Positions 3,046-40,131 of a DNA stretch of 64,000 nucleotides are shown here, piece after piece. Location of the stretch: assembly GCF_007830265.1 (NCBI RefSeq), contig NZ_VLKE01000001.1, positions 4,960,001-5,024,000 on the forward strand, in the 5' to 3' direction. How positions within the stretch are numbered: the stretch's first letter is position 1; each line of letters starts with the position of its first letter. The DNA is from Micromonospora olivasterospora. Its GTDB lineage: Bacteria > Actinomycetota > Actinomycetes > Mycobacteriales > Micromonosporaceae. Below the pieces are notes generated by a model, which saw nothing but the letters and a program-made list of their open reading frames with translations, searched no databases and was not told the origin of the DNA. The translations under genes and the position numbers were made by a program.

Positions 3046-3071
3046 GTACCCGGCGGACCGCGGGGCGAAAC
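3046..3071 (-). promoter_or_regulatory. SigB/SigF-type promoter for the STAS-HATPase operon
   Basis: On the minus strand GTTT (3071-3068) is followed by 16 bases and GGGTAC (3051-3046). This matches the GTTT-N15/17-GGGTA pattern known for actinobacterial SigB/SigF-family promoters. It points at the STAS gene. The -35 half belongs to the first copy of the neighbouring 28-bp tandem repeat. Confidence 0.7.
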
Positions 3072-3228
3072 GGAGCGGCCCGCGGCCGCGGGGCGAAACG
3101 GAGCGGCCGGCCGCCGCGGGGCGAAACGGAGGGCCGGCCGCCGCGGGGCGAAACGGAGGGGCCGGCCGCCGCGGGGCGAAACAGAGGGGCCGGCCGCCGC
3201 GGGGCGAAACGGAGGGGCCGGCGGGCCG
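3057..3228. repeat. Tandem array of six ~28-bp units carrying GTTTCG boxes
   Basis: The core GGGCGAAAC starts at 3063, 3091, 3119, 3146, 3174 and 3202, so the period is 28, 28, 27, 28 and 28 bases. Units are nearly identical (GCGGGGCGAAACGGAG plus a GGCCGGCCGCC spacer). On the minus strand each unit shows GTTTCGCCCC, the -35 element of a SigB-type promoter, but only the unit nearest the STAS gene has a GGGTA box at the right distance. It is not a CRISPR: there are no unique spacers. The 27-base step breaks a reading frame, so the array is unlikely to be coding. Confidence 0.9.
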
Positions 3229-3236
3229 GGCACGGC

Positions 3237-3695
3237 TCAGCGGCGGCCGCGGGTGGTGGCCACCCCGAGGGCGATCATCCCGACGCCGAGGCCGAGGTGC
3301 AGCCAGTTGTCGGCGCTGTTGACCGGGATGAAGTTGGCCGCCGTCTTGTGGTCGATGGCCAGGCCGTAGAGCCACAGCACGAGGTAGATCGCGCCGCCGC
3401 CGACGAGGAACGTCCGGGCGCCGTGCACGGTGCGCGACAGCACCAGGCCGGCGACGCCGAAGGCCAGGTGCACGATGTTGTGCAGGATCGAGACCTGGAA
3501 CACCCCGAGCAGCTTCGCCTCGGAGGTGTGCCCGGCGAAGTACAGGTCGTCGTACCGGGTGGTGATGCCGGGGATGAAGCCGAGGATCCCGACCACCAGG
3601 AACACCACGCCGACGACGGCGGCGGTCCGCTGCACGAGGGCGCGGCCGTCCGCGGGGTTGCGGCGGGCCCGGGAGTGGGCCATCGATCCGGTCAC
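3237..3695 (-). CDS. DUF4383 domain integral membrane protein
   Basis: The 152-residue product has four hydrophobic segments, at about residues 25-45, 67-87, 92-113 and 130-147, and matches the actinobacterial DUF4383 pattern (VVGVVFLVVGILGFIPGITT, then HNIVHLAFGVAGL). Its biochemical role is unknown. The start is GTG 3695 with GAGGAG six bases upstream; ATG 3683 is an alternative. A GTTT-N15-GGGTAG promoter lies 43 bases upstream, which suggests stress induction by the SigB-type sigma factor. Confidence 0.85.
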   Translation of the reverse strand: MTGSMAHSRARRNPADGRALVQRTAAVVGVVFLVVGILGFIPGITTRYDDLYFAGHTSEAKLLGVFQVSILHNIVHLAFGVAGLVLSRTVHGARTFLVGGGAIYLVLWLYGLAIDHKTAANFIPVNSADNWLHLGLGVGMIALGVATTRGRR

Positions 3696-3737
3696 CTCGA
3701 TCTCCTCACTGTGCGGGCGAAGCTCCGACGGCGGCGG

Positions 3738-3762
3738 CTACCCGCCCCCGGCCCGTCGAAAC
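3738..3762 (-). promoter_or_regulatory. SigB/SigF-type promoter for the DUF4383 gene
   Basis: On the minus strand GTTT (3762-3759), a 15-base spacer and GGGTAG (3743-3738) point at the DUF4383 gene. Confidence 0.7.
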
Positions 3763-3888
3763 CCGCGCCGGCAGGCAGGTTGCGGTTCGCCGGCATCGTC
3801 GCCCCGCCGCCGGCCGGGCGGATGTTCGCCCGGACCCACCCGCCGCGGGGCGGCCCTGCCCACGCCGGCCGGGGCGGTCCTGCCCGCG

Positions 3889-5046: not shown

Positions 5047-5088
5047 GCCTGGCTCCCCTCTCTCGGCGGGCCCCGGCGGGCACGCGCC

Positions 5089-6105: not shown

Positions 6106-6291
6106 TGAGACACCCCCAGATCGTGGCGGAAACCGGGACCGTGTTTCCCCGGCCCCCACCGCACGCTAACCCGATCATCCCCAACAGCCTGATCACGAGC
6201 CCGGTGCCGCCCCGTTCGCGCCGCGACGTTTGGCCGTCCCCACGACGGGGAGTGGTCGTGGGTCGGCGACCGCGACGGAGAGGTCTGGTTC

Positions 6292-7323
6292 ATGCGCGCG
6301 TGCCGGGTGGGACTGGTGGGGGCCGGCGGGGTGGCGCAGCGCCACGCCCGGGTGTTGGACGGCTTCGCCGACGTGGAGATCCTCGGCGTCACCGACGTGA
6401 CGCGGGACGCGGCGGCCGAGCTGGCCGACGCGTACGGTGCGCGGGCCTTCCTCGACGTGGACGAGCTGCTGGCGGCCGGGCCCGACGCCGTCTACGTGTG
6501 CGTGCCGCCGTTCGCGCACGGGCCGGTGGAGGAGGCGGTGGTGGCCGCCGGGGTGCCGATGTTCGTGGAGAAGCCGGTCGCGCTGGACCTGGACACCGCC
6601 GAGCGGATCGCCGACCTGGTGGCCCGGCGCGGGCTGCTCACCGGCGTCGGGCACCACTGGCGGTACCTGCACGTGGTGGAGCAGGCCCGGGAACTGCTCG
6701 CCGACCGGCCGGTGCGCATGGTCGGCGGCTCCTGGCTGGACCGGGTGCCCCCGGTGGCCTGGTGGGCCCGGCGGGACCGCTCCGGCGGCCCGGTGGTCGA
6801 GCAGGCCGCGCACGTGCTGGACCTGATGCGCCTGCTGGTCGGCGAGGTGGCCGAGGTCAGCGCGTACGGCGACGGCACCCCGCCGCCGGTCGAGGGAGCC
6901 GACGTCGACTCGGTCACCACCGCCGCGCTGCGCTTCGCCGAGGGGGCGGTGGGCACCCTCGCCGCGGCCTGCGTGCTCGGCTGGAAGCACCGGGCGGGCC
7001 TGGAGATCGTGGCCGACGGGCTGGCCCTGTCGCTGGCCGAGGACGGGCTGACAATCTGCGCCGAGGACGGCGAGCGGTACCTGCCCGCCGACCCCGACGG
7101 CGCCCGGGTGGCCGTCGACCGGGCCTTCGTCGACGCGGTCCGCGGGGTGGGCGACGACGTCCGTGTCCCGTACGCCGAGGCGCTCGGCACCCAGCGGCTG
7201 GCCCTCGCGGTGGCCGAGTCGGCCCGCACCGGCCGCCCCGTGTCGCTGCCCACCGGGCCGGCGGGGTTGCCGCGGGTCGCCGTCACCGGGCCGGCGCCGT
7301 CCGGGGTGGGCTTCGATGCGTGA
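6292..7323 (+). CDS. Gfo/Idh/MocA-family NAD(P)-dependent oxidoreductase
   Basis: The 343-residue enzyme has an N-terminal Rossmann fold with GLVGAGGVAQRH (7-18) and the family EKP signature at 93-95 (FVEKPVALD), followed by the C-terminal alpha/beta dimerisation domain. Members oxidise or reduce sugars, inositols or related cyclic alcohols; the substrate here is unknown. Its last eight bases (ATGCGTGA) contain the start codon of the following dehydrogenase gene, so the two are translationally coupled and probably act on one pathway. Confidence 0.88.
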   Translation: MRACRVGLVGAGGVAQRHARVLDGFADVEILGVTDVTRDAAAELADAYGARAFLDVDELLAAGPDAVYVCVPPFAHGPVEEAVVAAGVPMFVEKPVALDLDTAERIADLVARRGLLTGVGHHWRYLHVVEQARELLADRPVRMVGGSWLDRVPPVAWWARRDRSGGPVVEQAAHVLDLMRLLVGEVAEVSAYGDGTPPPVEGADVDSVTTAALRFAEGAVGTLAAACVLGWKHRAGLEIVADGLALSLAEDGLTICAEDGERYLPADPDGARVAVDRAFVDAVRGVGDDVRVPYAEALGTQRLALAVAESARTGRPVSLPTGPAGLPRVAVTGPAPSGVGFDA

Positions 7324-8404: not shown

Positions 8405-8468
8405 GCCGGCCCGCCGCGGCCGGCCGGGGGGAGCAAAAGTCGGCCCGAGTCGCGTACCGTTGCGGCTC

Positions 8469-10763
8469 ATGGGTGTGTCGCAACGGTTGAAGAGCAGGTT
8501 CCGGCGGTTCCTCCAGCGGCCCGGCACCACGGTCGACCTGGCCCCGCTGGAGAAGCTGCTGCCGGCCATCGAGGCGCGCGAGGAGGAGCTGTCGGCGCTG
8601 ACCGACGCCGAGCTCACCGAGGCCGCCGGCGCAGCCTCGGGATACGAGGAGATCTGCGCCCTCGGCCGGGAGGCCGCCCGTCGCGGGCTGGACCAGCGGC
8701 CGTACGACGTGCAGCTGCTCGGCGCCATGTCCCTGCTGTCGGGCAAGGTCGCCGAGATGGCCACCGGTGAGGGCAAGACCCTGACCGCCACGATCGCCGC
8801 GTACGGGCACGTCCGGCTGGGCAACGGGCCGGTGCACGTGCTCACCGTCAACGACTACCTGGCCCGCCGGGACGCCCAGTGGATGGAGCCGATCTACACC
8901 CTGCTGGGGCTGACCGTCGGCTGGGTCAACGAGGCGTCCACGCCGCAGGAGCGGCGCGAGGCGTACGCCTGCGACGTCACCTACGTCTCCGTCAGCGAGG
9001 CCGGCTTCGACTACCTGCGCGACCAGCTCGTCACCGACCTCGCCGACCGGGTCCAGCCAAAGCTGAAGACCGCGATCGTCGACGAGGCCGACTCGATCCT
9101 CATCGACGAGGCCCGGGTGCCGATGGTGCTCGCGGGCGCGATCTCCGACGAGCAGGACCCGGTGCACGCCGCCGCCGCGCTGGTCCGCGGCCTGCGCAAG
9201 GGCAAGCACTACACGGTGGCCGAGGACGGCCGCAGCGTCGCGTTCACCTCCGCCGGCCTGGCTGCCGTCGAGGCCAAGCTCGGCGGCATCGACCTGTACG
9301 ACGAGGAGCACGTCGGGCAGCTCTCCGCGGTCAACGTGGCGCTGCACGCGCACGCCCTGCTGCACCGCGACGTCGACTACATCGTCCGCGACGACAGCGT
9401 GGAGCTGATCGACGAGATGCGCGGCCGGGTGGCCCAGCGCCGCCGCTGGCCCGACGGCCTCCAGGCGGCCGTCGAGGCCAAGGAGGGGCTGGACGCCACC
9501 GCCGAGGGCGAGGTGCTCGGCACCATCGCCGTGCAGGCGTACATCGCCCTGTACCCGACGGTCTGCGGCATGACCGCGACCGCCGTGCTGGTCGGCGACC
9601 AGCTGCGCGAGTTCTTCGGCCTCGAGGTCGCGGTGATCCCGCCGAACACCCCCTGCGTCCGGGAGGACGAGCCGGACCGGATCTACGCCACCCGCGCCGA
9701 GAAGGACGAGGCGCTGGTCGACGAGATCCGGCGCTGCCACTCCGCGGGCCGCCCCGTGCTGGTCGGCACCCTCGACGTCAAGGAGTCCGAGCAGCTCGCC
9801 ACCGGCCTGAACGCCGCCGGGGTGCCCTGCGTGGTGCTCAACGCCAAGAACGACGACGAGGAGGCGGCGATCATCGCCGAGGCCGGCAAGTTCGGCGCGG
9901 TGACCGTCTCCACCCAGATGGCCGGCCGGGGCGTCGACATCCGGCTCGGCGGCAGCGACCAGACCGACCGGGACCGGGTCGCCGAACTGGGCGGCCTGTA
10001 CGTCATCGGCAGCGGCCGGCACGACAGCCGCCGCGTCGACGACCAGCTGCGCGGCCGGGCCGGGCGGCAGGGCGACCCGGGCGGCTCGGTGTTCTTCGTC
10101 AGCCTGGAGGACGACCTGGTGGTCCGGCACGCCGGCGACGCCGTCCCCGCGTCGCCGCGGATGAACGCCGACGGCCTGGTCACGGACCCGCAGGTGGACT
10201 ACGCGGTGGAGCACGCCCAGCGGGTCGCCGAGGGCGTCAACCACGAGATCCACCGCAACACCTGGCGCTACAGCGTGGTGATCGAGCAGCAGCGCAAGGC
10301 GCTCGCCGAGCGGCGGGAGCGGCTGCTGACCAGCGACGTCGCCGCGATCATGCTGTTGGAGCGGGTGCCGGACAAGGCCGGCGAGATGGACGAGGACCTG
10401 CTCGCGCGGGTCGCCCGGTCGATCGCCCTGTACCACCTCGACCGGCTCTGGGCCGCGCACCTGGCCGAGCTGTCCGAGGTGCGCGAGGGCGTGCACCTGC
10501 GGGCGCTGGGGCGCCTCGACCCGCTCGACGAGTTCCACCGGGCGGCCGTGCCGGCGTTCAACGCGCTGGTCCCCGAGATCGAGACGCGCACCATCGACAC
10601 GTTCACGGAGACCGAATTCGACGAGGACTGGGAGCCGGACGCCTCGAAGCTGGTGCGGCCCAGCGCCACCTGGACGTACCTGGTGCACGACAACCCGTTC
10701 GGCTCCGAGCTGGACCGCCTGATCGCCTCGGTCGGCCGCCGGCTCAGCTCCGCCTCGCGCTGA
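8469..10763 (+). CDS. secA2: Accessory Sec translocase ATPase SecA2 (actinobacterial type)
   Basis: This 764-residue SecA homologue drives ATP-dependent export of a subset of proteins through SecYEG. Walker A is ATGEGKT (98-104), the DEAD-type Walker B appears as VDEADSILIDEAR, and the second helicase half contains DQLRGRAGRQGDPGGS, the SecA motif VI. The C-terminal metal-binding tail of SecA1 is missing and the protein is shorter than housekeeping SecA (about 900 residues or more), as is usual for actinobacterial SecA2. A TACCGT box ends eight bases before ATG 8469 and no ribosome-binding site is visible, so the mRNA is probably leaderless. A strong hairpin follows the stop. Confidence 0.9.
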   Translation: MGVSQRLKSRFRRFLQRPGTTVDLAPLEKLLPAIEAREEELSALTDAELTEAAGAASGYEEICALGREAARRGLDQRPYDVQLLGAMSLLSGKVAEMATGEGKTLTATIAAYGHVRLGNGPVHVLTVNDYLARRDAQWMEPIYTLLGLTVGWVNEASTPQERREAYACDVTYVSVSEAGFDYLRDQLVTDLADRVQPKLKTAIVDEADSILIDEARVPMVLAGAISDEQDPVHAAAALVRGLRKGKHYTVAEDGRSVAFTSAGLAAVEAKLGGIDLYDEEHVGQLSAVNVALHAHALLHRDVDYIVRDDSVELIDEMRGRVAQRRRWPDGLQAAVEAKEGLDATAEGEVLGTIAVQAYIALYPTVCGMTATAVLVGDQLREFFGLEVAVIPPNTPCVREDEPDRIYATRAEKDEALVDEIRRCHSAGRPVLVGTLDVKESEQLATGLNAAGVPCVVLNAKNDDEEAAIIAEAGKFGAVTVSTQMAGRGVDIRLGGSDQTDRDRVAELGGLYVIGSGRHDSRRVDDQLRGRAGRQGDPGGSVFFVSLEDDLVVRHAGDAVPASPRMNADGLVTDPQVDYAVEHAQRVAEGVNHEIHRNTWRYSVVIEQQRKALAERRERLLTSDVAAIMLLERVPDKAGEMDEDLLARVARSIALYHLDRLWAAHLAELSEVREGVHLRALGRLDPLDEFHRAAVPAFNALVPEIETRTIDTFTETEFDEDWEPDASKLVRPSATWTYLVHDNPFGSELDRLIASVGRRLSSASR

Positions 10764-10765
10764 CC

Positions 10766-10803: not shown

Positions 10804-10854
10804 GCGACCCGCCCTTTCTGGCCGCTGACCAGGAACGCCAGGCTGTTTTCGGTC

Positions 10855-10880
10855 GTTTCGACCCTTGTTGGCCGGGGTAG
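10855..10880 (+). promoter_or_regulatory. SigB/SigF-type promoter for the GAF-ANTAR gene
   Basis: GTTT (10855-10858), a 16-base spacer and GGGTAG (10875-10880) lie 36 bases before the short leader frame at 10916 and 104 bases before the preferred GAF-ANTAR start. Confidence 0.7.
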
Positions 10881-10915
10881 TAGGCCGGGGCCGATGAACC
10901 GGGAGAGAACTGACG

Positions 10916-10987
10916 ATGAGACACCCGAAGGCCGGCGCGTCGCCGTGCGCGCCGGCCTCTGCGACGGCGGGGGCAGTGGCCCGGTGA
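10916..10987 (+). CDS. Possible 23-residue leader peptide coupled to the GAF-ANTAR gene
   Basis: An ATG with a good GGGAGAG site eight bases upstream opens a 23-codon frame (starting MRHPKAGASPCAPAS). Its TGA overlaps a GTG in GTGA form, and that GTG begins the GAF-ANTAR frame. This would make the regulator depend on translation of the leader. The alternative is that the GAF-ANTAR protein starts at ATG 10894 and this frame is a chance shadow. The peptide has no recognisable motif. Confidence 0.4.
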   Translation: MRHPKAGASPCAPASATAGAVAR

Positions 10988-11724
10988 ACCTGGAGACGCA
11001 GGCGCCCGGCACCGGGACCCTGAGTGTGCTGGAGACCGCGGCGCTGCTGCGGGAGCTGACCGCCGGCCTGATCGCCGTGACCGATTTCGACGAGGCGCTG
11101 GTCCACCTGGTGCGGATCGCCCGGGAGGCCGTGGCCGGCGTCGCGTGGTGCGGCTTCACCGCCCTGCGGGCCGGGGAACCGGCCGGGGCGGCCGCGTCCG
11201 ACCCCGCCCTCGCGGGCCTGGACGACCTGAGCCACGGTCCCGACTCGCCGGCGATGAGCGCGATCCACCGCCGGGAGATGGTTCTCTCGGAGGACCTGCG
11301 GCGGGAGGAGCGCTGGCCGGCCTGGACGGCCCGGGCCCGCGAGCTGGGGGTGCGGGGGGTGATCTCCGCGCCGGTGGACGTCGACGAGCAGGTCATCGGG
11401 GCGATCAACCTGTACGCCTCGGCGGCCGAGCCGTTGACCACCCGGCACCAGCTCACCGCGATGCTGCTCGCCGAGCACGCCGGGCTGCTGCTCGCCGCCG
11501 TGCGGGGACGGGAGCGGCAGGCGGCCCGGGCCGACGAGCTGGACGCGGCGCTGCTCGGCGAGGGGGTGGTGGGTCAGGCCATCGGCGTGATCATGACCCA
11601 GCGCGGCTGCCCGGCGCCCGAGGCGCTGCAGGTGCTGCGCAGCGCCGCCGCGTCGCTGGACATCCCGCTGCGCGAGGTGGCCGAGCGGCTGGTCGTGACC
11701 GTGTCCCGTCCCCGGGACAGCTGA
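10984..11724 (+). CDS. GAF and ANTAR domain RNA-binding antiterminator
   Basis: The product senses a signal through an N-terminal GAF domain (about residues 20-165 from GTG 10984) and acts through a C-terminal ANTAR domain (about 185-240: VGQAIGVIMTQRGCPAPEAL, then LREVAERLV). ANTAR proteins bind paired RNA hairpins to prevent termination. I prefer the start GTG 10984 (246 residues) because of the GTGA overlap with the leader; ATG 10894 would add 30 low-complexity residues. A SigB-type promoter lies upstream, so it is probably a stress-induced regulator. The RNA targets are not visible here. Confidence 0.85.
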   Translation: MNLETQAPGTGTLSVLETAALLRELTAGLIAVTDFDEALVHLVRIAREAVAGVAWCGFTALRAGEPAGAAASDPALAGLDDLSHGPDSPAMSAIHRREMVLSEDLRREERWPAWTARARELGVRGVISAPVDVDEQVIGAINLYASAAEPLTTRHQLTAMLLAEHAGLLLAAVRGRERQAARADELDAALLGEGVVGQAIGVIMTQRGCPAPEALQVLRSAAASLDIPLREVAERLVVTVSRPRDS

Positions 11725-11776: not shown

Positions 11777-11802
11777 GTTTCCCATCCGGTACCCGCGGGT
11801 AG
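11777..11802 (+). promoter_or_regulatory. SigB/SigF-type promoter for the DUF2231 gene
   Basis: GTTT (11777-11780), a 16-base spacer and GGGTAG (11797-11802) lie 40 bases upstream of the DUF2231 start codon. Confidence 0.72.
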
Positions 11803-11842: not shown

Positions 11843-12328
11843 ATGGAGAGCCGGCTGCGGGTGCAGGGGCAACCGATCCAACCGATGCTGGTGACGTTCC
11901 CGTACGGGCTCTTCGTCTGCGCCACGATCTTCGACCTGGCCGACGTCGTCGGCGGGCCGGCCTTCCTCGGCGAGGTCGGCTACTGGACGTGCGTCGCCGC
12001 CCTGGTGGCGGCGGGGCTGTCCACGGTGGCCGGCATGGTCGACCTGTGGGACGCCACGGGCGGCCGGACGCGGCGCACGAAGATCACGTTCAACCTGGTC
12101 AACGCCGCGATGGCCGGGCTGTTCCTGCTGACCTGCCTGGGCCGGGCACAGTCGCCGCAGCGCGGCGCGTCCGGCATCGTGCTCGCGATCGAGCTGGTCG
12201 CCCTCGGCGTCGGCGGGGTCGGCGTGTGGCTGGGCTCCCGGCTGTTGCGCCAGTTCGAGGCGGGTCGCGCCGACGCGAGCAGCATCGGGGCGCTGGCCGA
12301 CGTCGCCGGCTCCACCCGGGCGGGTTGA
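11843..12328 (+). CDS. DUF2231 domain integral membrane protein
   Basis: The 161-residue product has four hydrophobic segments, at about 15-37, 47-66, 88-104 and 112-132, and the DUF2231 hallmark of an early Pro-His/Pro-rich turn (QPIQPMLVTFPYGLF). The function is unknown; relatives often sit beside haem or stress genes. The start ATG 11843 follows GGGGAGG. The gene has its own SigB-type promoter. Its stop codon lies inside the first bases of a dispersed two-palindrome repeat. Confidence 0.83.
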   Translation: MESRLRVQGQPIQPMLVTFPYGLFVCATIFDLADVVGGPAFLGEVGYWTCVAALVAAGLSTVAGMVDLWDATGGRTRRTKITFNLVNAAMAGLFLLTCLGRAQSPQRGASGIVLAIELVALGVGGVGVWLGSRLLRQFEAGRADASSIGALADVAGSTRAG

Positions 12329-17935: not shown

Positions 17936-17961
17936 GTTTGACGCGCACGGGCGCCGGGTAA
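17936..17961 (+). promoter_or_regulatory. SigB/SigF-type promoter for the TraR/DksA gene
   Basis: GTTT (17936-17939), a 16-base spacer and GGGTAA (17956-17961) lie 103 bases upstream of the TraR/DksA start. Confidence 0.7.
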
Positions 17962-17977: not shown

Positions 17978-17999
17978 GCGCGGGTGAGATCACCCGCGC
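17978..17999 (+). promoter_or_regulatory. Perfect 10-bp inverted repeat in the TraR/DksA leader
   Basis: GCGCGGGTGA (17978-17987) and TCACCCGCGC (17990-17999) flank two bases. It begins just after the predicted transcription start, so it could be a repressor site or an RNA hairpin in the leader. There is no direct evidence for either. Confidence 0.45.
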
Positions 18000-18064
18000 G
18001 CGTCTCATCGTCCGGAACCGGGGCCCGCCCCCGGCGTTACCAGGCCCACGAAAGGCAGGCAGCG

Positions 18065-18463
18065 ATGCTCGTCCACGACACGGTTGACACCGGCCGATCG
18101 CAGGCGGAGACCGACCAGATCCGGTCGGCCCTGCGGGCGCGCTACGACGAGCTCACCGCGGAGTACGAGCAGGCGGTGCTGCAGAGCCAGGTGCTGCGGC
18201 TGGTCGAGGTCGGCGACACCGCCGGCGACGACCAGGCAGACAGCGGCACCAAGACCGCCGAGCGGGACACCGCGCAGTCCCTGCTGCGCACCATCCTCGA
18301 CCGCCGGGCCCAGTTCGAGCACGCCCTGACCCGGCTGGAGGAGGGCACCTACGGCTACTGCGAGGGCTGCTCGGGGCCGATCCCGGTGGAGCGGCTGGAG
18401 ATCTTTCCATCCGCCACGTCCTGTGTGTCCTGCAAGCAGAACCGGGAGCGGCGGGCGGCCTGA
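18065..18463 (+). CDS. TraR/DksA-family zinc-finger protein
   Basis: The 132-residue product has an N-terminal coiled coil and a C-terminal four-cysteine finger: YCEGCSGPIP (C99, C102) and SCVSCKQ (C120, C123). DksA-type proteins bind the RNA polymerase secondary channel and adjust transcription under stress; some actinobacterial members are RbpA/CarD-unrelated stress proteins of unclear role. The start ATG 18065 has an AAAGGCAGG-type site upstream. A SigB-type promoter and a perfect inverted repeat precede it. Confidence 0.85.
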   Translation: MLVHDTVDTGRSQAETDQIRSALRARYDELTAEYEQAVLQSQVLRLVEVGDTAGDDQADSGTKTAERDTAQSLLRTILDRRAQFEHALTRLEEGTYGYCEGCSGPIPVERLEIFPSATSCVSCKQNRERRAA

Positions 18464-20478: not shown

Positions 20479-20504
20479 GTTAGAGAAGATCGTGCGTGGG
20501 GTAC
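20479..20504 (+). promoter_or_regulatory. Candidate SigB/SigF-type promoter (GTTA variant)
   Basis: GTTA (20479-20482), a 16-base spacer and GGGTAC (20499-20504) lie 62 bases upstream of the repeat-protein start. One base differs from the GTTT consensus. Confidence 0.5.
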
Positions 20505-20565: not shown

Positions 20566-20854
20566 ATGGCACTCAACGACGACGACATGCAGACGACCGG
20601 CGGCGCGAGCGCGGAGGGACCGGCCGACGGCGGTGCCACCGTCGGCCAGCGCGACGGTGGCGCCGACGGCGGCGCGGACCGCGGCGCGGAGCGCGGGGCC
20701 GACCGCGGGCCGACCAGGGCGCCGAGGCCCGGCCGACGGCGGCGCGACCCCGGGCCAGCACGACGGCGGCGCGGACGGCAGCGCGGAGGGCCCGGCCGAC
20801 GGCGGCGCCAGCCCCGGGCAGCGCGACGGCGGCGCCGACGGCAACGCCCGCTGA
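20566..20854 (+). pseudogene. Gly/Ala/Asp-rich repeat protein, frame broken twice
   Basis: From ATG 20566 (GAGGGAG upstream) the protein starts MALNDDDMQTT and then repeats a unit like AEGPADGGATVGQRDGGADG. Units begin at about 20611, 20721 and 20783. The frame is lost near 20707-20709 (CGCGGGCC where neighbouring units suggest CGCGGGGCC) and again at 20726-20727 (GAGGCCC where the other units have GAGGG), one G missing each time. Adding the two bases restores one frame to the TGA at 20852. The intact product would be about 96 residues, acidic and probably disordered. The JmjC gene starts nine bases later. Confidence 0.65.
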
Positions 20855-20863: not shown

Positions 20864-22141
20864 GTGACGAGCACCCAGCCGCCGGGCGGCCCCGTCCGCC
20901 CGGCGGTGTCGTCCGCCGCCACGGAGGCCCTCGCACGCTGCGTCGCGGTCGAGCCCGCGAAGTTCGCCGCCGCCCACTGGGGACGCACCCCGCTGCTGTC
21001 CCGCGCCGCGGAACTGCCCAACCCCGCCGGCTTCACCGACCTGTTCAGCCCCGCCGACGCCGACGAGCTGCTCAGCCGCCGCGGCCTGCGTACCCCGTTC
21101 CTGCGGGTGGCCCAGGACGGCCAGCTCGTGCCGGCGGCGCGGTACACCGGCGGTGGCGGTGCCGGCGCCGAGATCGCCGACCAGGTCCTCGACGAGCGGG
21201 TCCTGGAGCTGTACGCCTCCGGCGCCACCCTCGTGCTGCAGGGACTGCACCGCACCTGGCCCGCCCTGGTCGACCTCGCCCGGGACCTCGGCGCCGCCCT
21301 CGCGCAGCCCGTTCAGGTCAACGCCTACCTGACCCCGGCCGGCAACCAGGGCTTCGCCACCCACTACGACACCCACGACGTCTTCGTGCTCCAGGTCGAC
21401 GGCCGCAAGCACTGGCGCATCCACCCCCCGGTGCTGCCCGACCCCCTGGAACGGCAGCCCTGGGGCGGGCTGGCCGACGAGGTCTCCGCCACCGCCGACG
21501 GACCGGCCGCGCTCGACGTCGTCCTCGAACCGGGCGACGCCCTCTACCTGCCGCGGGGCTGGCTGCACAGCGCCCAGGCCCAGGAGTCCAGCTCGCTGCA
21601 CCTGACCGTCGGCGTCCGCGCGCTGACCCGGTACGCCATCGTCGAGGAACTGCTGGCCCTCGCCGCCGGGGACCCGCGGCTGCGCGCCGGGCTGCCGTTC
21701 GGCACCGACGTCGCCGACCCCGACGCGATCGAGCCGGAGCTGACCGAAACCGTGGAGGCGCTGCGTGACTGGCTGCTGCGCGCCGACCCCGCCGCGGTCG
21801 CCGCGCGGCTGCGGGCCCGGGCCTGGCCGGCGGCCCGGCCCGCGCCGATCCGGCCCCTCGCGCAGGCCGCCGCCCTGTCCACCCTCGACGTCGACACCCG
21901 GCTCACCGCCCGCCCCGGGCTGCGCTGGCGGCTCGAACCGCAGGGGCCCGACCGGGTCGCGCTGCGCCTGTTCGACCGTACGATCACCCTGCCCACCCGG
22001 TGCGGGCCGGCGGTACGCGCGCTGCTGACCGGCGCGGTCACCCGGGTCGGCGACCTGCCCGGCCTCGACGACGACGCCGACCGGGTGGTGCTGGCCCGCC
22101 GCCTGCTCCGCGAGGCCGTCGCCGTTCCCGCCGAGGGCTAG
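20864..22141 (+). CDS. JmjC/cupin-like Fe(II)/2-oxoglutarate oxygenase (ROXA/NO66-like)
   Basis: The 425-residue enzyme resembles bacterial ribosomal-protein arginyl hydroxylases. Iron ligands are visible in FATHYDTHDVFVLQ (H167, D169) and GDALYLPRGWLHSA (H235), and KHWRIHPP follows the first strand as in the family. The C-terminal part should be the dimerisation and winged-helix region. The predicted reaction is hydroxylation of a ribosomal protein side chain; the substrate is not known. The start GTG 20864 lies nine bases after the repeat-protein stop, so the two are co-transcribed. Confidence 0.85.
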   Translation: MTSTQPPGGPVRPAVSSAATEALARCVAVEPAKFAAAHWGRTPLLSRAAELPNPAGFTDLFSPADADELLSRRGLRTPFLRVAQDGQLVPAARYTGGGGAGAEIADQVLDERVLELYASGATLVLQGLHRTWPALVDLARDLGAALAQPVQVNAYLTPAGNQGFATHYDTHDVFVLQVDGRKHWRIHPPVLPDPLERQPWGGLADEVSATADGPAALDVVLEPGDALYLPRGWLHSAQAQESSSLHLTVGVRALTRYAIVEELLALAAGDPRLRAGLPFGTDVADPDAIEPELTETVEALRDWLLRADPAAVAARLRARAWPAARPAPIRPLAQAAALSTLDVDTRLTARPGLRWRLEPQGPDRVALRLFDRTITLPTRCGPAVRALLTGAVTRVGDLPGLDDDADRVVLARRLLREAVAVPAEG

Positions 22142-27198: not shown

Positions 27199-27582
27199 TT
27201 ACGCCTCGCCCCGCAGCCAACGGGGGCCGTACACCTCGGCGCCCAGCGCGCCTACCCGCTCGCGCAGCTCCCGGTCGGCCGTGACCACCAGCCGGCGACG
27301 ATCCGGTGCCGCCTCGACCAACTCGACCACGGTGTCGTCGCCGGATCCCCGCGCGGCCACCACCCGCACGCCCGGCGCACCTGGCACACTCCGGGCGGCC
27401 CCCTCGACGACGAGCACGACCTCGGTGGGTCCGGTCAGCCGCGGCGGCACCCCGTGTTCGGCCACCGGCGCGAGGGCGTCGCGGAGCCGGGCCGCCGCCC
27501 CGGCCCGGTCCCGCCACCAGCCGTCGGGGCGGGAACCGACGACGTTGGCGGCGTCCACGATCAGCAGCGGCCTCGGGTCCAT
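27199..27582 (-). CDS. NYN/PIN-like domain protein
   Basis: The 127-residue protein has the NYN/PIN acid pattern: LLIVDAANVVGSRPDGWWRD at the start (D10, N13), VVLVVEGAAR in the middle and RRLVVTADRELRERVGALGA with the late acidic residue, ending VYGPRWL. NYN proteins are metal-dependent RNases or nucleic-acid processing proteins; the target is unknown. The start ATG 27582 is preceded by GAGGG. It is divergent from the Clp gene across a repeat-rich gap. Confidence 0.78.
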   Translation of the reverse strand: MDPRPLLIVDAANVVGSRPDGWWRDRAGAAARLRDALAPVAEHGVPPRLTGPTEVVLVVEGAARSVPGAPGVRVVAARGSGDDTVVELVEAAPDRRRLVVTADRELRERVGALGAEVYGPRWLRGEA

Positions 27583-27697
27583 GCCCTCAGCCTGCCACCT
27601 GGGCCCCGACGCGCCGTGTACCCGCCCCCCGCCCCGTGCCCGCGTGTCCGCCCGTACCCCGCGCCCATGTGCCCCGGTCTCCGCCTGCCCCCGTGTC

Positions 27698-27827
27698 CGC
27701 CTGGCGTCCCGGGCCCGCGTGCGCGCCTGGCGTCCCGGGCCCGCGTGCGCGCCTGGCGTCCCGGGCCCGCGTGCGCGCCTGGCGTCCCGGGCCCGCGTGC
27801 GCGCCTGGCGTCCCGGGCCTGCCTGCC
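27698..27827. repeat. 26-bp tandem repeat, about five copies
   Basis: CGCCTGGCGTCCCGGGC starts at 27698, 27724, 27750, 27776 and 27802; the last copy diverges at its end. The 26-base period is not a multiple of three, so no repeat protein is encoded. It sits between the divergent NYN and Clp genes, in a gap (27583-27998) that otherwise contains only the Clp promoter. Each unit contains the self-complementary CCCGGG. Confidence 0.88.
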
Positions 27828-27909
27828 CGCGCGCTCCCGTGCCCGCCCGGCGCCCCGTGCCCGTGCGCCCCCGCCGCGTCCGGCGGCGGGGCGGCGGCGG
27901 TGGGCGGGC

Positions 27910-27934
27910 GTTTGTCGCTCCCACCGTCGGGTAG
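27910..27934 (+). promoter_or_regulatory. SigB/SigF-type promoter for the ClpC-like operon
   Basis: GTTT (27910-27913), a 15-base spacer and GGGTAG (27929-27934) lie 64 bases before the Clp start. No HspR-type (HAIR) or CtsR-type repeat was seen. Confidence 0.7.
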
Positions 27935-27998
27935 CCACGGCCGACCGTGCCGGCCCGACGGTACGGCGAGCGCGCCGACCCGACCGCGGAGGGCAGAG

Positions 27999-30550
<2,552 letters not shown>

Positions 30551-30554
<4 letters not shown>

Positions 30555-32220: not shown

Positions 32221-33219
32221 GAGTGAGCTGATCTCAGCGACGCGAATGTGTTGATTGGTGCGACACGGATGAAGGCACTCAGGCCGGACAGTGCTGGAAG
32301 TGGACGTGAGGTCCTCGGTAGGTAGTTCTCACCACAAGATCACCCACACGGTGAGGACCCCACGTGATCGCATATCGTGCCATGGTCGACGTCCCGAGGG
32401 AACTCGTGCGGTACCTCAGCCGGCTGCTTGCCGCGGAACGCCGAGCCAAGGGGACACGGCGCGGCACCCGCGCGTTGACCTGCTTCTACCAGGCACTGCT
32501 GGTGCTGGTCTGGTTCCGCAAGGCCGAGGACGTGACCCTGCTCGGCGCCGGGTTCGGCATCTCCCGGGCGACCGCGTACCGCTACCGCGACGAGGGCATC
32601 GCCGTGCTCGCCGCGCAGGCGCAGGATCTGCACACCGCGCTGCGCCGAGTCGCCGACGACGGCTGGTCCCACGTGATCCTCGACGGCAAGCTGTTCGACT
32701 GCGACCGGCTCACCGAGACCACCCTGTCGGTCAAGGGCGAGATCATCGACGCCTGGTACTCCGGAAAGCACCGCGACTTCGGCGCGAACATCCAAGCGAT
32801 CATCCGCCCGGACGGACTGCCGATCTGGACATCGGCGGCGATGCCCGGGCACCTGCACGACACCAGCTGCGCCCGCGAACTCGGGGTGACCGCCGCGCTG
32901 AACTGGTCCGCCGCCGAACTGGACCTACCCGCACTGGCCGACTCCGGCTACGAAAGCGCAGGCCACGGCATCAAGACCCCAGTCAAGCAGCCTACTGACG
33001 GCAGCCGGCTCGCACCCGACAACCGCGCCTACAACCGGCTGCTGCGCGGGCTGCGCTGGCAAGGCGAACGCGGCTTCGCCATCCTGATCGGACGCTGGAA
33101 AACGCTACGCCATACCACCGCCAGCCCACGCCGGATCGGCGACGTCGTCGCCGCCGCGCTGCATCTGACTCATTTCGAGTACAAGTACCTACCCGAATCT
33201 TGTTGAGATCACTTCAGTG
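32221..33219 (+). mobile_element. IS5-type insertion sequence
   Basis: A transposase gene is bracketed by short inverted ends that share TGATCTCA (32229-32236, and reversed at 33204-33211). GTGA occurs at both outer edges (32217-32220 and 33217-33220) and could be the target duplication. Boundaries are accurate to a few bases only. The left edge abuts the stop of the secreted-protein pseudogene; the right edge stops about 11 bases before the ABC ATPase start codon. Confidence 0.65.
32364..33206 (+). CDS. IS5-family transposase
   Basis: The 280-residue DDE transposase has an N-terminal helix-turn-helix (GFGISRATAYRYRDEGIAVL) and a catalytic core with HVILDGKLFDCDRL (first Asp), LPALADSGYESAGHGIKTP (second Asp) and a late Glu in LLRGLRWQGERGFAIL. 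It appears full length and intact. The start is GTG 32364; GTG/ATG codons near 32382 are alternatives. Confidence 0.85.
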   Translation: MIAYRAMVDVPRELVRYLSRLLAAERRAKGTRRGTRALTCFYQALLVLVWFRKAEDVTLLGAGFGISRATAYRYRDEGIAVLAAQAQDLHTALRRVADDGWSHVILDGKLFDCDRLTETTLSVKGEIIDAWYSGKHRDFGANIQAIIRPDGLPIWTSAAMPGHLHDTSCARELGVTAALNWSAAELDLPALADSGYESAGHGIKTPVKQPTDGSRLAPDNRAYNRLLRGLRWQGERGFAILIGRWKTLRHTTASPRRIGDVVAAALHLTHFEYKYLPESC

Positions 33220-33229
33220 ACCCGAACTT

Positions 33230-33898
33230 ATGCTGAACGCGATTGACGTCCGGTATTCGTTCGGTCAGACGGTGGCGCTCGCTGACGCGAGCGCCACCGT
33301 CGCGCCGGGCGAAAAAGTCGCCCTGGTTGGGCCCAGCGGATCCGGTAAGACCACTTTCCTCTATTGTCTCGCCGGATTACTCAGGCCCGGCCGCGGGCAG
33401 GTGCTATTCAATGGCAAGGACTTGGCGAAAATGTCGGACGAGGAGCGGTCGGACCTTCGACTTCGCTCTTTCGGGTTCGTCTTCCAGTTTGCGGAACTTG
33501 TGCCGGAACTGACGATTCGCGAGAATGTCGCGCTTCCGTTGGACCTCGCCGGCGTTGATCGCGCGGAACGGGCCGAGCGGGTCGCACTGTTGCTCGACCG
33601 GCTTGGCCTCACCAGTGAGGCGGGTCGGCGGCCCGCGCAGGTCTCCGGCGGGCAGGCGCAGCGTGCGGCGGTTGCGCGGGCGATCGTGCACCGGCCGTCC
33701 GTCGTCTTCGCCGACGAACCGACCGGATCGCTGGACACCGCCAACGGCGAGGCGGTCATCGACCTGCTGTTCGGCCTGTCCGAAGAACAGGGATCCGCGG
33801 TGGTTCTGGTCACCCACGACCCGAAGATCGCCTGCCGCGCAGACCGCGTGCTGGAGCTGCGAGACGGTCGCCTGCTGGCGGAGGTACCGTCCCCGTGA
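33230..33898 (+). CDS. ABC transporter ATP-binding protein (LolD/MacB type)
   Basis: The 222-residue ATPase has Walker A GPSGSGKT (34-41), the Q-loop GFVFQFAEL, signature VSGGQAQR, Walker B VVFADEPTGSLD and the switch His in LVTHDP. It should power the following FtsX-type permease. No Shine-Dalgarno precedes ATG 33230, because the IS5 element ends about 11 bases upstream; its original leader may have been lost. The stop overlaps the permease start (GTGA), so the two are coupled. Codon use is less GC-biased than the core genes. Confidence 0.87.
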   Translation: MLNAIDVRYSFGQTVALADASATVAPGEKVALVGPSGSGKTTFLYCLAGLLRPGRGQVLFNGKDLAKMSDEERSDLRLRSFGFVFQFAELVPELTIRENVALPLDLAGVDRAERAERVALLLDRLGLTSEAGRRPAQVSGGQAQRAAVARAIVHRPSVVFADEPTGSLDTANGEAVIDLLFGLSEEQGSAVVLVTHDPKIACRADRVLELRDGRLLAEVPSP

Positions 33899-35821: not shown

Positions 35822-37232
35822 CCTTTTTGGGGTCTACTGCCGTTCTCGTGGGTCGGGTTCATGATCGTCCGGGTAGTGGTGGGCAGAGGCCGCCGCGGCG
35901 GAGGTTGGCCATGGTGATCAACGCTTTGGCGCTGTGGTAGCCGTAGGCCTGGCGGGTCAGCACGCGCAGGTGGACGTTGTTGGCCTCGATGCGGGCGTTG
36001 GACAGTCCGCTGTCGAGCATGTTGTGGATCGCGGGCAGGTGACGGCGGATCGTCTTGGCCAGCTTGACGAACGGGGCCAGCTTCGACCGGCTCGCCCAGC
36101 GTAGCCACGCCTGTAGCAGGAGCCTGCCGTCGGCGCCCTTGACCGCGATGATCTCCCGGAACTGTTCCTTGAGTAGGTACGCCCGGTACAGCGGCCGGTT
36201 GGTGGCCTGGATCGTGGCCAGGGTCGCCTTCTGCTTGTCGGTCAGGTTCGGCGGGTTCTTCCACAGCGCCCACCGGGCGTCTTTGAGGGTCTTGGACGCC
36301 TCGGTGCGGCCGCCTTTGCCGCCACGGGCGGTGTTCCACACCGCCCGGCGTACCTCGTCGAGGGCGTCGGTGACCCAGGCGACCAGGTGATAGGGGTCAA
36401 GGCAGCGGACCGCCTGCGGCGCCCGCTCGGCCACCACGTCACCGATCCAGGCGGCGGCGTCGGCCGACACGTGGGTCAGCGCCGCGGCCCGCTGCGCGCC
36501 CAGCTCGTCGAAGAACGCGGCGACGGTGGCCTTGTCCCGCCCGTCGGCGGCCCACACCAGGCGGCCGGTGTCGTGATCGACGACCAGGGTCAGGTAGCGC
36601 TGGCCCTTGCGGTAGGCGACCTCGTCGATACCGATCCGTTTGAGTCCGGCCAGTCGATCGGTGCCGGCGGCGGCAGCGTCGACGACCCGGCCGACGATAG
36701 CGACCACGCTGCGCCAGGCGATGCGCAGCAGCCCGGTCACCGCCGACGCGGACGTGCGCGCGGCCAGCCACGCCGCGGTGTCCTCGAACGCCGTGGTGAA
36801 CCGGGCACCGTGACGCGCCCACGGCACCGCGATCACCGTCGGCCCGTGCTCGGCACAGTCGACCCGAGGCACGGCGGCCTCGATGACCACCCGCAGCGTG
36901 CCGAAGTCCAGGTGCCGCCACCGCCGCCTGCCCCAGCCGCGGTCGTACCACGGCGCGCGAGCCCGGCAGCGCCCGCAGCGACGCGCCGCGCCCTTGCGCG
37001 GCCGGGCAGAGATCACCAAGACCTCACCGTCGGTGTCGTCATCGAGGCGCACGCCCTCGACGACGGCCCGTTCCAGCCCTGCCTGTCGATGCAATACCCT
37101 GGTCAAACGCACGCCGTTTCCCGATCTTCAGTTTCTGACCTTCGACAAGCCAGAAACCTAGACGGGACACGGCGTGCCCTGTCGATCAGGGCGTCAACCC
37201 ACCCACGAGAACATCACAAGAGCCCCTTTTTG
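35822..37232 (-). mobile_element. ISL3-family insertion sequence with 8-bp target duplication
   Basis: The element proper spans 35830-37224 (1395 bp). Its ends match at 19 of 24 positions and share GTTCTCGTGGGT. The flanks are the direct repeat CCTTTTTG at 35822-35829 and 37225-37232. It carries one transposase gene, antisense to the permease. The intact ends, duplication and clean reconstruction of the host gene indicate a recent insertion. Confidence 0.93.
35859..37112 (-). CDS. ISL3-family transposase
   Basis: The 417-residue transposase starts with a four-cysteine/histidine zinc-finger-like region (RRCGRCRARAPWYDRG, then VDCAEHGP), has a helix-turn-helix and a DDE core (RIGIDEVAYRKGQRYLTLVV, HVSADAAAWIGDVVAERAP, RCLDPYHLVAW) and ends with SNARIEANNVHLRVLTRQAY, where the catalytic Glu lies. 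It is full length and looks active. Confidence 0.92.
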   Translation of the reverse strand: MRLTRVLHRQAGLERAVVEGVRLDDDTDGEVLVISARPRKGAARRCGRCRARAPWYDRGWGRRRWRHLDFGTLRVVIEAAVPRVDCAEHGPTVIAVPWARHGARFTTAFEDTAAWLAARTSASAVTGLLRIAWRSVVAIVGRVVDAAAAGTDRLAGLKRIGIDEVAYRKGQRYLTLVVDHDTGRLVWAADGRDKATVAAFFDELGAQRAAALTHVSADAAAWIGDVVAERAPQAVRCLDPYHLVAWVTDALDEVRRAVWNTARGGKGGRTEASKTLKDARWALWKNPPNLTDKQKATLATIQATNRPLYRAYLLKEQFREIIAVKGADGRLLLQAWLRWASRSKLAPFVKLAKTIRRHLPAIHNMLDSGLSNARIEANNVHLRVLTRQAYGYHSAKALITMANLRRGGLCPPLPGRS

Positions 37233-37570
37233 CTCGGAATCGGTGCGTTTCTCATCAGCTCGGTGGTCCGGGTCGTGGACCGGCGGCGTGACGTGGTCGC
37301 TCTGGTGGTCGTCGGGGCGCGGCGGCGAACACTGCGACTGGTCCAGCTCGCACAGACGCTCGGCCCACTGTCGATTGCCCTGACGGTCTCCATGGTCGTC
37401 GGTCATCTGGGAGGAAACGCTCTGCTCCGACTGCAGGGCAAGCAGGTGGGTTGGTACGACGGGACGCTGCAGGCCGCGTGGCCGATGGTCTTGGTTGCCG
37501 TCCTGGCCGCGTGCGCGGTGGGTGTGATCGTGGTGGGTCTCCGGCCCAAAACAGAGGATCTTCGACGACA

Positions 37571-38281
37571 ATGAGGTCAGGAGCGAGCATGCCGGTGACT
37601 GGCGTTACCAGCACGAGGCGGTCGAACCGTTACGTTTGGATCTTAGGACTGATCGCCTTGGCGGCGGGTCTGGGTGTCCTGATCCCCCAGTACAGCACCC
37701 ACGTCGTCGGCACGCCGGTGATGGGACCGGCCATCCATGCGGGTGAGCGAGTCGTGCTGCGAGACGGGGGCGAGGTCCGCCGGAATTCGATCGTGGCGAT
37801 TCGGGCCTGGGACGACCTCACCTTCACGGTGCGGGTCGTCGCGGTGGGCGGCGACGAGGTGGTGTGTTGCGGAGATAGCGGCAGGCTGCAGGTCAACGGT
37901 AAGGAGGTCGTCGAACCGTACGCGCATGGGAATACGGCCGCTTTCGGGGCCTTCTCTGTGCAGGTGCCGCCGGGCCGGGTCTTCGTCCTGGGTGACTCGC
38001 GCGACGTTTCCGTGGACTCTCGCTCCCACCTGAACGACAACGGCGGGACGTTGCCGGCGGACCAGATTCAAGGTGCCGCAGTGGCGGTCTCCTCACCCCC
38101 GTGGCGCGCCCGGTTGCTTACCGGCGTCTCCGAGGCGCCATTACTGATTCTCGGTCTCGTGCTGACCGGTGCCGGGCTGGTGGCACTGGTGGTGATCGGG
38201 CGGCCGGTGCTGTTCCGGGCGGTTGCTGGGCTCCGGCGCAGGGGGAAGCCCTCTCTCGAGGTCGACGAACAGTTGGTGTGA
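37571..38281 (+). CDS. Signal peptidase I-like membrane protein lacking the catalytic Ser and Lys
   Basis: The 236-residue product has the S26 layout: an N-terminal membrane segment (about 22-40), box B VGTPVMGPAIHAGERVVL (46-63), box D TFTVRVVAVGGDEVV (84-98), box E VLGDSRDVSVDSRSH, and a second membrane segment near the C-terminus. The nucleophile position (usually S in SMxP) is V50 and the general-base Lys before RVV is V87, so peptidase activity is not expected. The N-terminus overlaps the permease stop (ATGA). It belongs to the decayed export cassette. A binding or scaffold role is possible; so is mutational decay. Confidence 0.8.
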   Translation: MRSGASMPVTGVTSTRRSNRYVWILGLIALAAGLGVLIPQYSTHVVGTPVMGPAIHAGERVVLRDGGEVRRNSIVAIRAWDDLTFTVRVVAVGGDEVVCCGDSGRLQVNGKEVVEPYAHGNTAAFGAFSVQVPPGRVFVLGDSRDVSVDSRSHLNDNGGTLPADQIQGAAVAVSSPPWRARLLTGVSEAPLLILGLVLTGAGLVALVVIGRPVLFRAVAGLRRRGKPSLEVDEQLV

Positions 38282-38363
38282 CGAGCTGCCGCACCGGCAC
38301 AGTCCCGCGCAGGGGCGTCCCCAGCATGTCCCGGCGCGGGAACGCCGTATTGTCACTTGTTGA

Positions 38364-39319
38364 TCACTGTACGCCGAAGTCCGGGTTGTGCAGCAGCCAG
38401 GCCAGGTAGTCCGGGTGCGCGGCCAGCGAGTCCCGGTACCCCGCTACCGCCGCCTCCAGCACCCCGTCGGCGAAGTCCGCCCCGACCGAGTCCGGGTGCC
38501 AGCCGAGCAGCAGCCGCCAGCGCAGAGGCGCCCCGGCCAGGCGGCGGGTGACCAGCCCGGGCACCGGGCGGAACGTGGCCTGGCACAGCCCCACCGCCAC
38601 GCCCGCGTCCACCAGGTCCACGCAGCCGCGTACGTCGGCCTCGTACATCTTCCGGGGGGTGAAGCCGGCGCGGGCGCACGCGGCGGCGAAGCAGTCGCCG
38701 AAGCAACCGTCGCCCGGGGCGACGGCCCACTGCTCCCGGCGCAGGTCCGCCAGCCGCACCTCGACCCGGTCGGCCAGCGGATGTCGCTCCGGCAGCAGCA
38801 CCTGCACCGGTTCGAGGGCCACCTCCTGCCAGGTCAGTCCGTACCCGGCCGGGGGGACCGCGTCGCCGCACACGCCGATCAGCGCGTAGTCCAGCCGGCC
38901 CCCGCCGACCTGCTGCGCCAGTTCGTCGGCCGACCAGGAGGCGTACGTGGTGATCTGGGCCTGGGGGTGCTCGGCGGCGAGCCGGCGCACCAGCGGGCCC
39001 AGGATCGGGCTGTTCACCCCGCCGAAGCGGTACCGGGCGGGCGTGGGCCAGCGCCGGCCAGCCGGGCCGCCTCGTCCTGCAGTCCCTGCATGGCCGGCAG
39101 CAGCACCCGGGCCCGGGCCAGCACCAGCTCGCCGAGGGCGGTGGGTCGGGCACCCCGCCGGTCCCGCTCGAACAGCGGGCCGCCCAGCGCCCGCTCGATG
39201 CGTTGGAGCTGGGCCGTGAGCGCCGGCTGGGCCAGGCCGAGCGTGGACGCCGCCTTGGTCACGCTCCCCGTCTCCGCGATGGCGCAGACCGCCCGCAGGT
39301 GTCGCAGCTCCAGATTCAT
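38364..39319 (-). pseudogene. LysR-family regulator with a single-base frameshift
   Basis: The N-terminal helix-turn-helix is intact (LRHLRAVCAIAETGSVTKAA, LGLAQPALTAQLQRIERAL). After about 90 residues the frame breaks at 39045-39047; a C-run of three where four would restore the frame leads into the effector domain (RYRFGGVNSPILGPLVRRLA, then LDYALIGVCGDAVPP) ending at 38364. The repaired protein would be about 318 residues, normal for LysR. Either a recent inactivating deletion or a sequencing error explains it. The target gene is not evident. Confidence 0.8.
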
Positions 39320-39409
39320 ACGGTGACCGTAGGGCCACGCGGGGATCCATGGAAGGGTCGAAATTGATCGGGCTCGACCGATATCTCTGGCTGTCCGGCC
39401 GGTGCCGCC

Positions 39410-40024
39410 TCAGGCCGGGGGCTGCTCCAGGTCCGACAGGTAGGTCGGCCGGCCCGTCACCGCGTCGCGGACCTTGTCCACCACGCCCACCGCCGGTTCG
39501 ACGATCCGGTTCCACGGAGGGGTGGCCGGCGTGCCCGGGTGCGGCCGGGTGGGCGCGGCCTCCTCGGCGATCTCCCACCGGTTGCCCAGCCGGATCAGCT
39601 CGGCCTCGGTGGCCACCCCGCGCAGCGCCGCGAGCACGGCGGCGGTGCCGTCGACGTGCCGGCGTACCCGGTCGGCGACCTCGGCCAGCGCGGGGTCGGC
39701 GGGGCCGCTGAGGGCCTTGAGGGCGGTCAGCAGGCCGGCGTCCGCGCCGATCTCCCGGTTCACCTGGTCCGCCCACTCGGGCAGCGCCGCCCGGGCGGCG
39801 GGGAACAGGTACTGCTCCTCCGCAGACAGGTGCCGGGACAGCGCGGCGATCAGCACCTCGACCGCCTCGCGCAGCCGCTCCGGTGCGATCCCCGGGTCGG
39901 TGACCCGGTACGACAGCTCGCGCAGCTGCCGGTGTTCGCGCTCGACGATGTCGACGAGACTGCGTCCGCCGGGCCGGTAGCCCTCCTCGGGCACGGGCGG
40001 CAGCGGGGGCAGGGGGACGGTCAT
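39410..40024 (-). CDS. Hemerythrin (HHE) domain protein
   Basis: The 204-residue protein has the HHE pattern: LVDIVEREHRQLRELSYRV (first His), LIAALSRHLSAEEQYLFPAA (His and Glu ligands) and DRVRRHVDGTAAVLAALRG. Such proteins bind O2, NO or serve in iron/oxidative-stress sensing through a di-iron site. The C-terminal 50 residues are Pro-rich and unlike the core. A SigB-type promoter lies 82 bases upstream, which fits a stress role. The start is ATG 40024. Confidence 0.85.
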   Translation of the reverse strand: MTVPLPPLPPVPEEGYRPGGRSLVDIVEREHRQLRELSYRVTDPGIAPERLREAVEVLIAALSRHLSAEEQYLFPAARAALPEWADQVNREIGADAGLLTALKALSGPADPALAEVADRVRRHVDGTAAVLAALRGVATEAELIRLGNRWEIAEEAAPTRPHPGTPATPPWNRIVEPAVGVVDKVRDAVTGRPTYLSDLEQPPA

Positions 40025-40105
40025 GTGCCCTCCTCGGCTGGCGGGCGGGGCGCCCGGGAACGGGGGAGCGGGGGCGCCCGGCGGGGGTGTCGGACGGCAG
40101 CGGCG

Positions 40106-40131
40106 GTACCCGCCGCGCGCCCGCGCGAAAC
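40106..40131 (-). promoter_or_regulatory. SigB/SigF-type promoter for the hemerythrin gene
   Basis: On the minus strand GTTT (40131-40128), a 16-base spacer and GGGTAC (40111-40106) point at the hemerythrin gene. Confidence 0.7.

Follow-up and report, generated by a model that had tools for sequence, protein, structure and literature searches.

A conserved and clustered set of probable SigB/SigF-type promoters around a sigma factor gene in Micromonospora olivasterospora

The sigma factor locus and its paired boxes

We analyzed a 64,000-nucleotide stretch of the Micromonospora olivasterospora genome (C1:4960001-5024000, hereafter the window; genome size, 7.07 Mb; GC content, 74%) that contains a gene for a sigma factor of the SigB/SigF/SigG family. 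The product of this gene scores 258.5 bits against the curated model TIGR02980, which has a cutoff of 234.35. Eight paired boxes in the window, GTTT or once GTTA followed after 15 or 16 bases (N15 or N16) by GGGTA, had been interpreted in a preliminary description as SigB/SigF-type promoters lying in one region with the sigma factor and its regulators. We recovered all eight (Table 1). Two are exact matches to GTTT-N15-GGGTA and five to GTTT-N16-GGGTA, and the remaining one, site 8, is one base off GTTT; some coordinates had been given one base beyond GGGTA, a trivial difference. Shuffling of the window gave expectations of 0.02 for N15, 0.04 for N16, and 0.06 for both combined, and the observed count was reached in 0 of 100 shuffles for each spacer.

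The sites were also intergenic, gene facing, and close to starts, as had been reported. The seven exact sites overlap no called gene, and their GGGTA boxes end 41 to 115 bases before the called start of the gene that they face; site 8 ends 62 bases before an ATG at 20566. Gene starts were called with our own codon-usage script. The site at 27910 falls within a mechanical open reading frame (ORF), 27306-30554, in which the ClpC start was called at 27999.

Table 1. Predicted promoters and associated genes in the window (positions within the window; strand relative to the contig)
Feature	Position	Strand	Remarks
SigB/SigF/SigG-family sigma factor	1144..2100	+	Sigma70 r2, r3, r4 (PF04542, PF04539, PF04545)
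HATPase_c_2 anti-sigma-like domain protein	2204..2575	-	PF13581 in frame 2204-2974; presumed N-box ELVGNVVRHA; start approximate
STAS anti-anti-sigma-like protein	2545..2931	-	PF01740, PF13466; lacks canonical phosphoacceptor serine
Predicted promoter 1, N16	3047..3071	-	Upstream of STAS-HATPase pair
DUF4383 membrane protein	3237..3683	-	PF14325 on 3237-3695; start from codon-usage calling
Predicted promoter 2, N15	3739..3762	-	Upstream of DUF4383
Additional candidate promoter, GTTT-N15-GGGGA	6228..6251	+	Upstream of GFO/IDH/MocA gene 6292-7323
Predicted promoter 3, N16	10855..10879	+	Upstream of GAF-ANTAR gene
GAF-ANTAR regulator	10984..11724	+	PF13185, PF03861 on 10894-11724; start from codon-usage calling
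Predicted promoter 4, N16	11777..11801	+	Upstream of DUF2231
DUF2231 membrane protein	11843..12328	+	PF09990
Predicted promoter 5, N16	17936..17960	+	Upstream of TraR/DksA
TraR/DksA-type zinc-finger protein	18065..18463	+	PF01258 on 17984-18463; start from codon-usage calling
Site 8, GTTA-N16-GGGTA	20479..20503	+	Conserved as block; weakest member
Small repeat-protein gene	20566..20854	+	Frame differs from that of relatives in later part; end placed where relatives stop
JmjC_2/cupin oxygenase	20864..22141	+	PF08007
Predicted promoter 6, N15	27910..27933	+	Upstream of ClpC-like gene
ClpC-like AAA+ unfoldase	27999..30554	+	PF07724, PF02861, PF10431 on 27306-30554; start from codon-usage calling
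Hemerythrin-like protein	39410..40024	-	PF01814
Predicted promoter 7, N16	40107..40131	-	Upstream of hemerythrin

The description of a sigma factor accompanied by its regulators held for the sigma factor and is plausible for its partners. The STAS and HATPase genes adjoin the sigma gene. The HATPase protein carries what we take to be the ATP-binding N-box motif. The STAS protein scored below the cutoff of TIGR00377. In an alignment of 32 STAS rows (23 of them from Micromonospora, including the window), no serine occurs in any of the six columns surrounding the usual phosphorylation site, where we presume that a DSSG-type phosphoacceptor motif would stand. Because this serine is absent from the alignment, we rejected the STAS protein as a canonical RsbV. 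The two proteins are plausible regulators of the window sigma factor. The TraR/DksA-type protein in the window likewise scored under the cutoffs of the yteA and DksA models.

Genome-wide distribution and conservation of the sites

A scan of the main contig for GTTT-N12 to N19-GGGTA returned 2, 5, 8, 30, 19, 8, 8, and 8 matches in order of spacer length, with two further matches, both N13, on contig 2. Only spacers of 15 and 16 bases were therefore clearly enriched (30 and 19, compared with 2 to 8). Across the whole genome, all spacers together gave 90 matches versus 33 with the pattern read backwards, and N15/16 alone gave 49 versus 8. The 19 N16 matches included four copies of a single repeat (three of the four were fetched); with these removed, 45 N15/16 sites remained. 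Thirty-five of them precede a called gene by at most 250 bases, 7 lie farther away or have no called gene, and 3 are in coding sequence, so that matches in coding regions were far from equaling those in gaps. The 41 sites with other spacers were distributed differently, with 15 upstream, 14 coding, and 12 far (Fisher p = 0.0002 for upstream and 0.002 for coding positions). Upstream positions were also found for 7 of 8 N17 and 4 of 8 N14 sites, suggesting that some of these may be functional. The four identical repeat copies, at C1:1183564, 2192829, 5059343, and 6825030, perhaps belong to a mobile element; copies also occur elsewhere in the genus and the family.

The strongest evidence that the sites form a promoter set comes from their conservation. 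We examined orthologous loci from up to 31 Micromonospora genomes, including that of M. olivasterospora, with at most 30 loci per gene, oriented by tblastn. Two incomplete loci were left out (L218 and L279), and the ClpC gene of 1 of the 31 genomes (G014), which is cut by a contig end, yielded no locus. Three loci, all without a site, were set aside as nonorthologous: L219 (a 49% fragment), L249 (a 59% paralogue), and L278 (a 27% match). The ClpC-like gene is preceded by a site in 30 of 30 fetched loci, always N15. For the TraR/DksA gene the count was 29 of 30, always N16, the exception being a 59% paralogue (29 of 29 genus orthologues), and for the hemerythrin gene 28 of 29, again always N16, the exception being a 49% fragment and one more locus being incomplete (28 of 28 orthologues with an upstream region). 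The spacer length, 15 or 16, is constant for each gene across the genus. No backward or reverse-strand pattern was found before the ClpC, TraR, and hemerythrin orthologues. Mean pairwise identity at these three sites was 1.00 in both boxes, with spacer identities of 0.75 (ClpC), 0.46 (TraR), and 0.51 (hemerythrin), 0.41 to 0.49 in the 25 bases upstream, and 0.78, 0.83, and 0.48, respectively, in the 25 bases downstream.

The surroundings of the sigma gene were compared between the window and up to 23 other loci, all from Micromonospora and with at least 92% identity in the sigma gene; two of these (L022 and L026) gave no STAS match. Exact sites precede the STAS gene in 22 of 22 cases (the window plus 21 loci), the GAF-ANTAR gene in 7 of 7, and the DUF2231 gene in 6 of 6. 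Six nontarget neighbors had no exact site among 118 cases: the gene before sigma (22), the sigma gene (24), two glycosyltransferase genes (21 and 22), an ADH gene (16), and SecA2 (13). The MocA gene has an exact site in 0 of 19 loci and a one-mismatch form, mostly GGGGA, in all 19, and it is likely a further target that the preliminary description overlooked. When spacers of 10 to 22 bases were allowed, the 23 Micromonospora loci together gave 46 matches with N15/16 and 2 with any other length.

Some of these loci have an additional N15/16 site in the interval separating sigma from the STAS-HATPase pair (L007:13304, L009:13331, L010:3795, L019:13356, and L029:13067). Of these sites, only the one in L007 was examined; it stands before a gene for cytochrome oxidase subunit I (COX1, 530.8 bits), for which the window has no room there.

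The sites are also clustered. Seven of the 45 N15/16 sites fall in the window, where 0.41 would be expected. A stretch of 0.31 Mb, C1:4.69-5.001 Mb, holds 16 of the 45 (expectation, 2.0), a number reached in any such stretch in 0 of 5,000 random placements. The main contig also has 39 sites with other spacers, none of which falls in this stretch; one N19 site (window position 41506) is only 506 bases outside the chosen boundary. In three relatives with full site lists, one of which (G019) had one repeat copy removed from its 39 sites, the densest 120 kb contains 9 or 10 sites (0 of 5,000 random placements each); over 64 kb the maximum is 6, matched in 4, 0, and 2 of 5,000 placements.

Pfam families were sought in the 30 called genes at most 320 bases downstream of noncoding N15/16 sites outside the window; the RecQ and WhiB genes start 288 and 299 bases from their sites. 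DUF2267 occurs three times among these genes and DUF2231, hemerythrin, and HATPase_c_2 once each. The others include OsmC, BrkB, RecQ, an AI-2E transporter, a protein kinase, a mechanosensitive channel, PEBP, FMN reductase, LtrA, erythromycin esterase, WhiB, and DUF2795. Seven of the 30 had no Pfam match.

Other genes stand among the targets in the window. The gene just before sigma (27-947) has no Pfam match. A SecA2 gene of mycobacterial type (8460-10763; TIGR04221, 1210.8 bits) directly precedes the GAF-ANTAR target, and three transposase genes of different families (32364-33206, 35859-37112, and 40202-41407) lie between or beside the ClpC and hemerythrin targets.

Assignment of the sites to a sigma factor

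Spacer specificity, clustering, position, and near-complete conservation of the boxes around diverged spacers support well the earlier proposal that these are SigB/SigF-type promoters in front of the named genes. We consider it very probable that the sites are the −35 and −10 elements of a sigma factor of the SigB/SigF/SigG family, mostly the one encoded in the window, and that they make up a clustered regulon of the stress type. RNA polymerase carrying such a sigma factor, likely mainly the product of 1144-2100, would read a few dozen promoters that are unusually dense around the sigma gene. Free sigma factor would turn on the STAS-HATPase pair, thereby feeding back on itself, along with the TraR/DksA-like and GAF-ANTAR regulators, the ClpC-like unfoldase, hemerythrin, and the DUF4383 and DUF2231 membrane proteins. 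Transcription starts at these sites, dependence on the window sigma factor, and stress as the inducing signal would all follow from this reading.

Several observations weigh against it. The sigma gene has no such promoter of its own: no site with up to one mismatch occurs within 250 bases in the window or the 23 other loci (0 of 24), and the same holds for the gene that precedes it (0 of 22). Together with the promoter before the STAS-HATPase pair, this suggests that feedback runs through the partner pair and not through the sigma gene. The DUF4383 site is exact in 8 of 16 loci, carries one mismatch (GGGAA or GGGGA) in 7, and is missing in 1. In 57 SigB-family loci of other genera and more distant relatives, N15/16 showed no comparable excess, with 7 matches against 6 for the other spacers. 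The boxes at site 8 and the paralogue of the sigma factor, considered below, count on the same side.

Site 8 could be a different element that lies outside the set, which we judge to be not much short of an even chance. GTTT occurs at this position in none of 28 genus orthologues. GTTA-N-GGGTA is found in 25 (23 N16, one N14, and one N15), and 3 have no match. Nineteen of the 28 carry the exact block GTTAGAGAAGATCG-N5-GGGGTA, showing that the start of the spacer is conserved as well. Since it reads GTTA in 25 of 28 and never GTTT, site 8 is weaker evidence for the same promoter class. Its membership is nevertheless favored by a Streptomyces promoter. Site 8 reads GTTAGA-N14-GGGTAC, and SCO5555p, which is read by SigG, SigK, and SigM, is GTTAGA-N13-GGGTAC (PMC8346170 Table 2; here and below, published systems are taken from excerpts of the sources cited).

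The gene that follows site 8 has features of its own. It encodes a small protein of near-perfect repeats, MALNDDD... and then EGPADGGATPGQxDGGADGxA units, and in many members of the genus it directly precedes a JmjC oxygenase gene. We found 165 homologues (relatives L251-L276), and the protein matched no family in Pfam or NCBIfam. The window copy leaves the frame of its relatives after about 47 residues. Judged by sequence, the repeat protein and the oxygenase look like a peptide substrate and its modifying enzyme.

Alternatively, the promoters could be genuine SigB-family promoters that are read mainly or equally by a paralogue, encoded at C1:4670802-4671644, or by both sigma factors, a possibility that we regard as appreciable though well below even. 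The genome has two SigB-family matches at least 45% identical to the window sigma factor, counting that protein itself. The paralogue is 48% identical to it and also passes TIGR02980, and the presumed promoter-reading regions of the two, for which we assumed the stretches compared to be regions 2.4 and 4.2, are near-identical. Five N15/16 sites lie about 20 to 41 kb from the paralogue. Among 61 family genomes, many of those without a sigma factor of the window type also show enrichment of the motif. The densest cluster, by contrast, surrounds the window sigma gene, and the site before TraR tracks the window sigma factor, being present in 18 of 20 genomes with the best sigma matches (at least 277 bits, 51 to 92% identity) and in 3 of the 30 whose matches are weaker; this comparison covers 50 of the 61 genomes, with 11 left out, three of them Micromonospora. 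The TraR and sigma genes are physically linked, however, so their co-occurrence is confounded and at most suggestive, and three genomes keep the site before TraR with no close orthologue of the window sigma factor. In Streptomyces, nine SigB homologues cross-recognize promoters (PMC8346170). With such cross-recognition and a near-identical paralogue, dependence on the window sigma factor is something that we can only infer.

Two further explanations fare far worse. A conserved two-box operator for a DNA-binding regulator would look the same as a promoter to computation alone, but the gene-facing orientation, the one-base tolerance in spacing, and the match to the published SigB/SigF consensus make this reading very improbable. 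Chance alone, in a GC-rich genome where matches with other spacers do arise, is practically inconceivable as the source of the sites, being ruled out by the shuffles, the backward pattern, the other spacers, and the nontarget genes and contradicted by conservation.

Relation to known regulons and biological meaning

The promoter set resembles regulons described in other actinomycetes. The SigF consensus of Mycobacterium smegmatis is GTTT-N14-19-GGGTA (PMC4694148), and the likeness extends from promoter form to targets, which there include two hemerythrin genes, recQ, and an rsbW homologue (PMC4694148; PMC7693655). Many SigF targets also lie near sigF, with at least 28 rows of Table 1 in that source running from MSMEG_1758 to MSMEG_1804, the sigF gene (PMC4694148). 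Unlike that system, the sigma gene studied here has no such promoter, the preceding gene has no Pfam match, the STAS protein lacks the canonical serine, and the targets include ClpC-like, TraR, and GAF-ANTAR genes.

Sigma-H of Actinoplanes sp. SE50/110, from the same bacterial family, shares the −35/−10 core, with G/CGTTTA/C at −35 and GGGTAN3T at −10 (PMC11205660). Its list of upregulated genes includes a BrkB/YihY membrane protein and an MFS transporter, and both families are among the targets here. The T four bases after GGGTA in the Actinoplanes motif occurs in 0 of 87 sites here, and sigma-H is autoregulated (PMC11205660). In Streptomyces coelicolor, the promoters of the nine SigB homologues have a GTTT or GNNT −35 box and a GGG-type −10 core and include the GTTAGA-type member SCO5555p (PMC8346170). 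M. olivasterospora differs in having two SigB-family matches at or above 45% identity to the window sigma factor, itself counted, and in spacers of 15 or 16 bases that are fixed per gene.

Among the matches listed in our literature searches, no Micromonospora regulon of this kind appeared in titles or the beginnings of abstracts, with most subscription papers falling outside the coverage. Nothing matching was found on the DUF families, and only unrelated titles were listed for regulon clustering.

The comparison supports well the view that the set adds a new case to a familiar class of gene networks and involves no new mechanism. More tentatively, and with considerable doubt, the locus may be a compact stress island, conserved throughout Micromonospora, in which the sigma factor lies inside its own regulon, a rewired, phosphorylation-independent partner switch, with a STAS protein not open to the usual phosphorylation, provides feedback, TraR/DksA, GAF-ANTAR, and ClpC form a second layer of regulators, and the sigma gene itself is not activated.

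The constant spacer of each gene and the sigma gene without its own promoter are points for specialist follow-up. Through the promoters, three uncharacterized families become linked to SigB-type control: DUF4383 and DUF2231, where conservation adds evidence, and DUF2267. This would, as proposed earlier, place such DUF families in the general stress response. The set thus provides a testable, promoter-level map of a putative stress regulon in Micromonospora.

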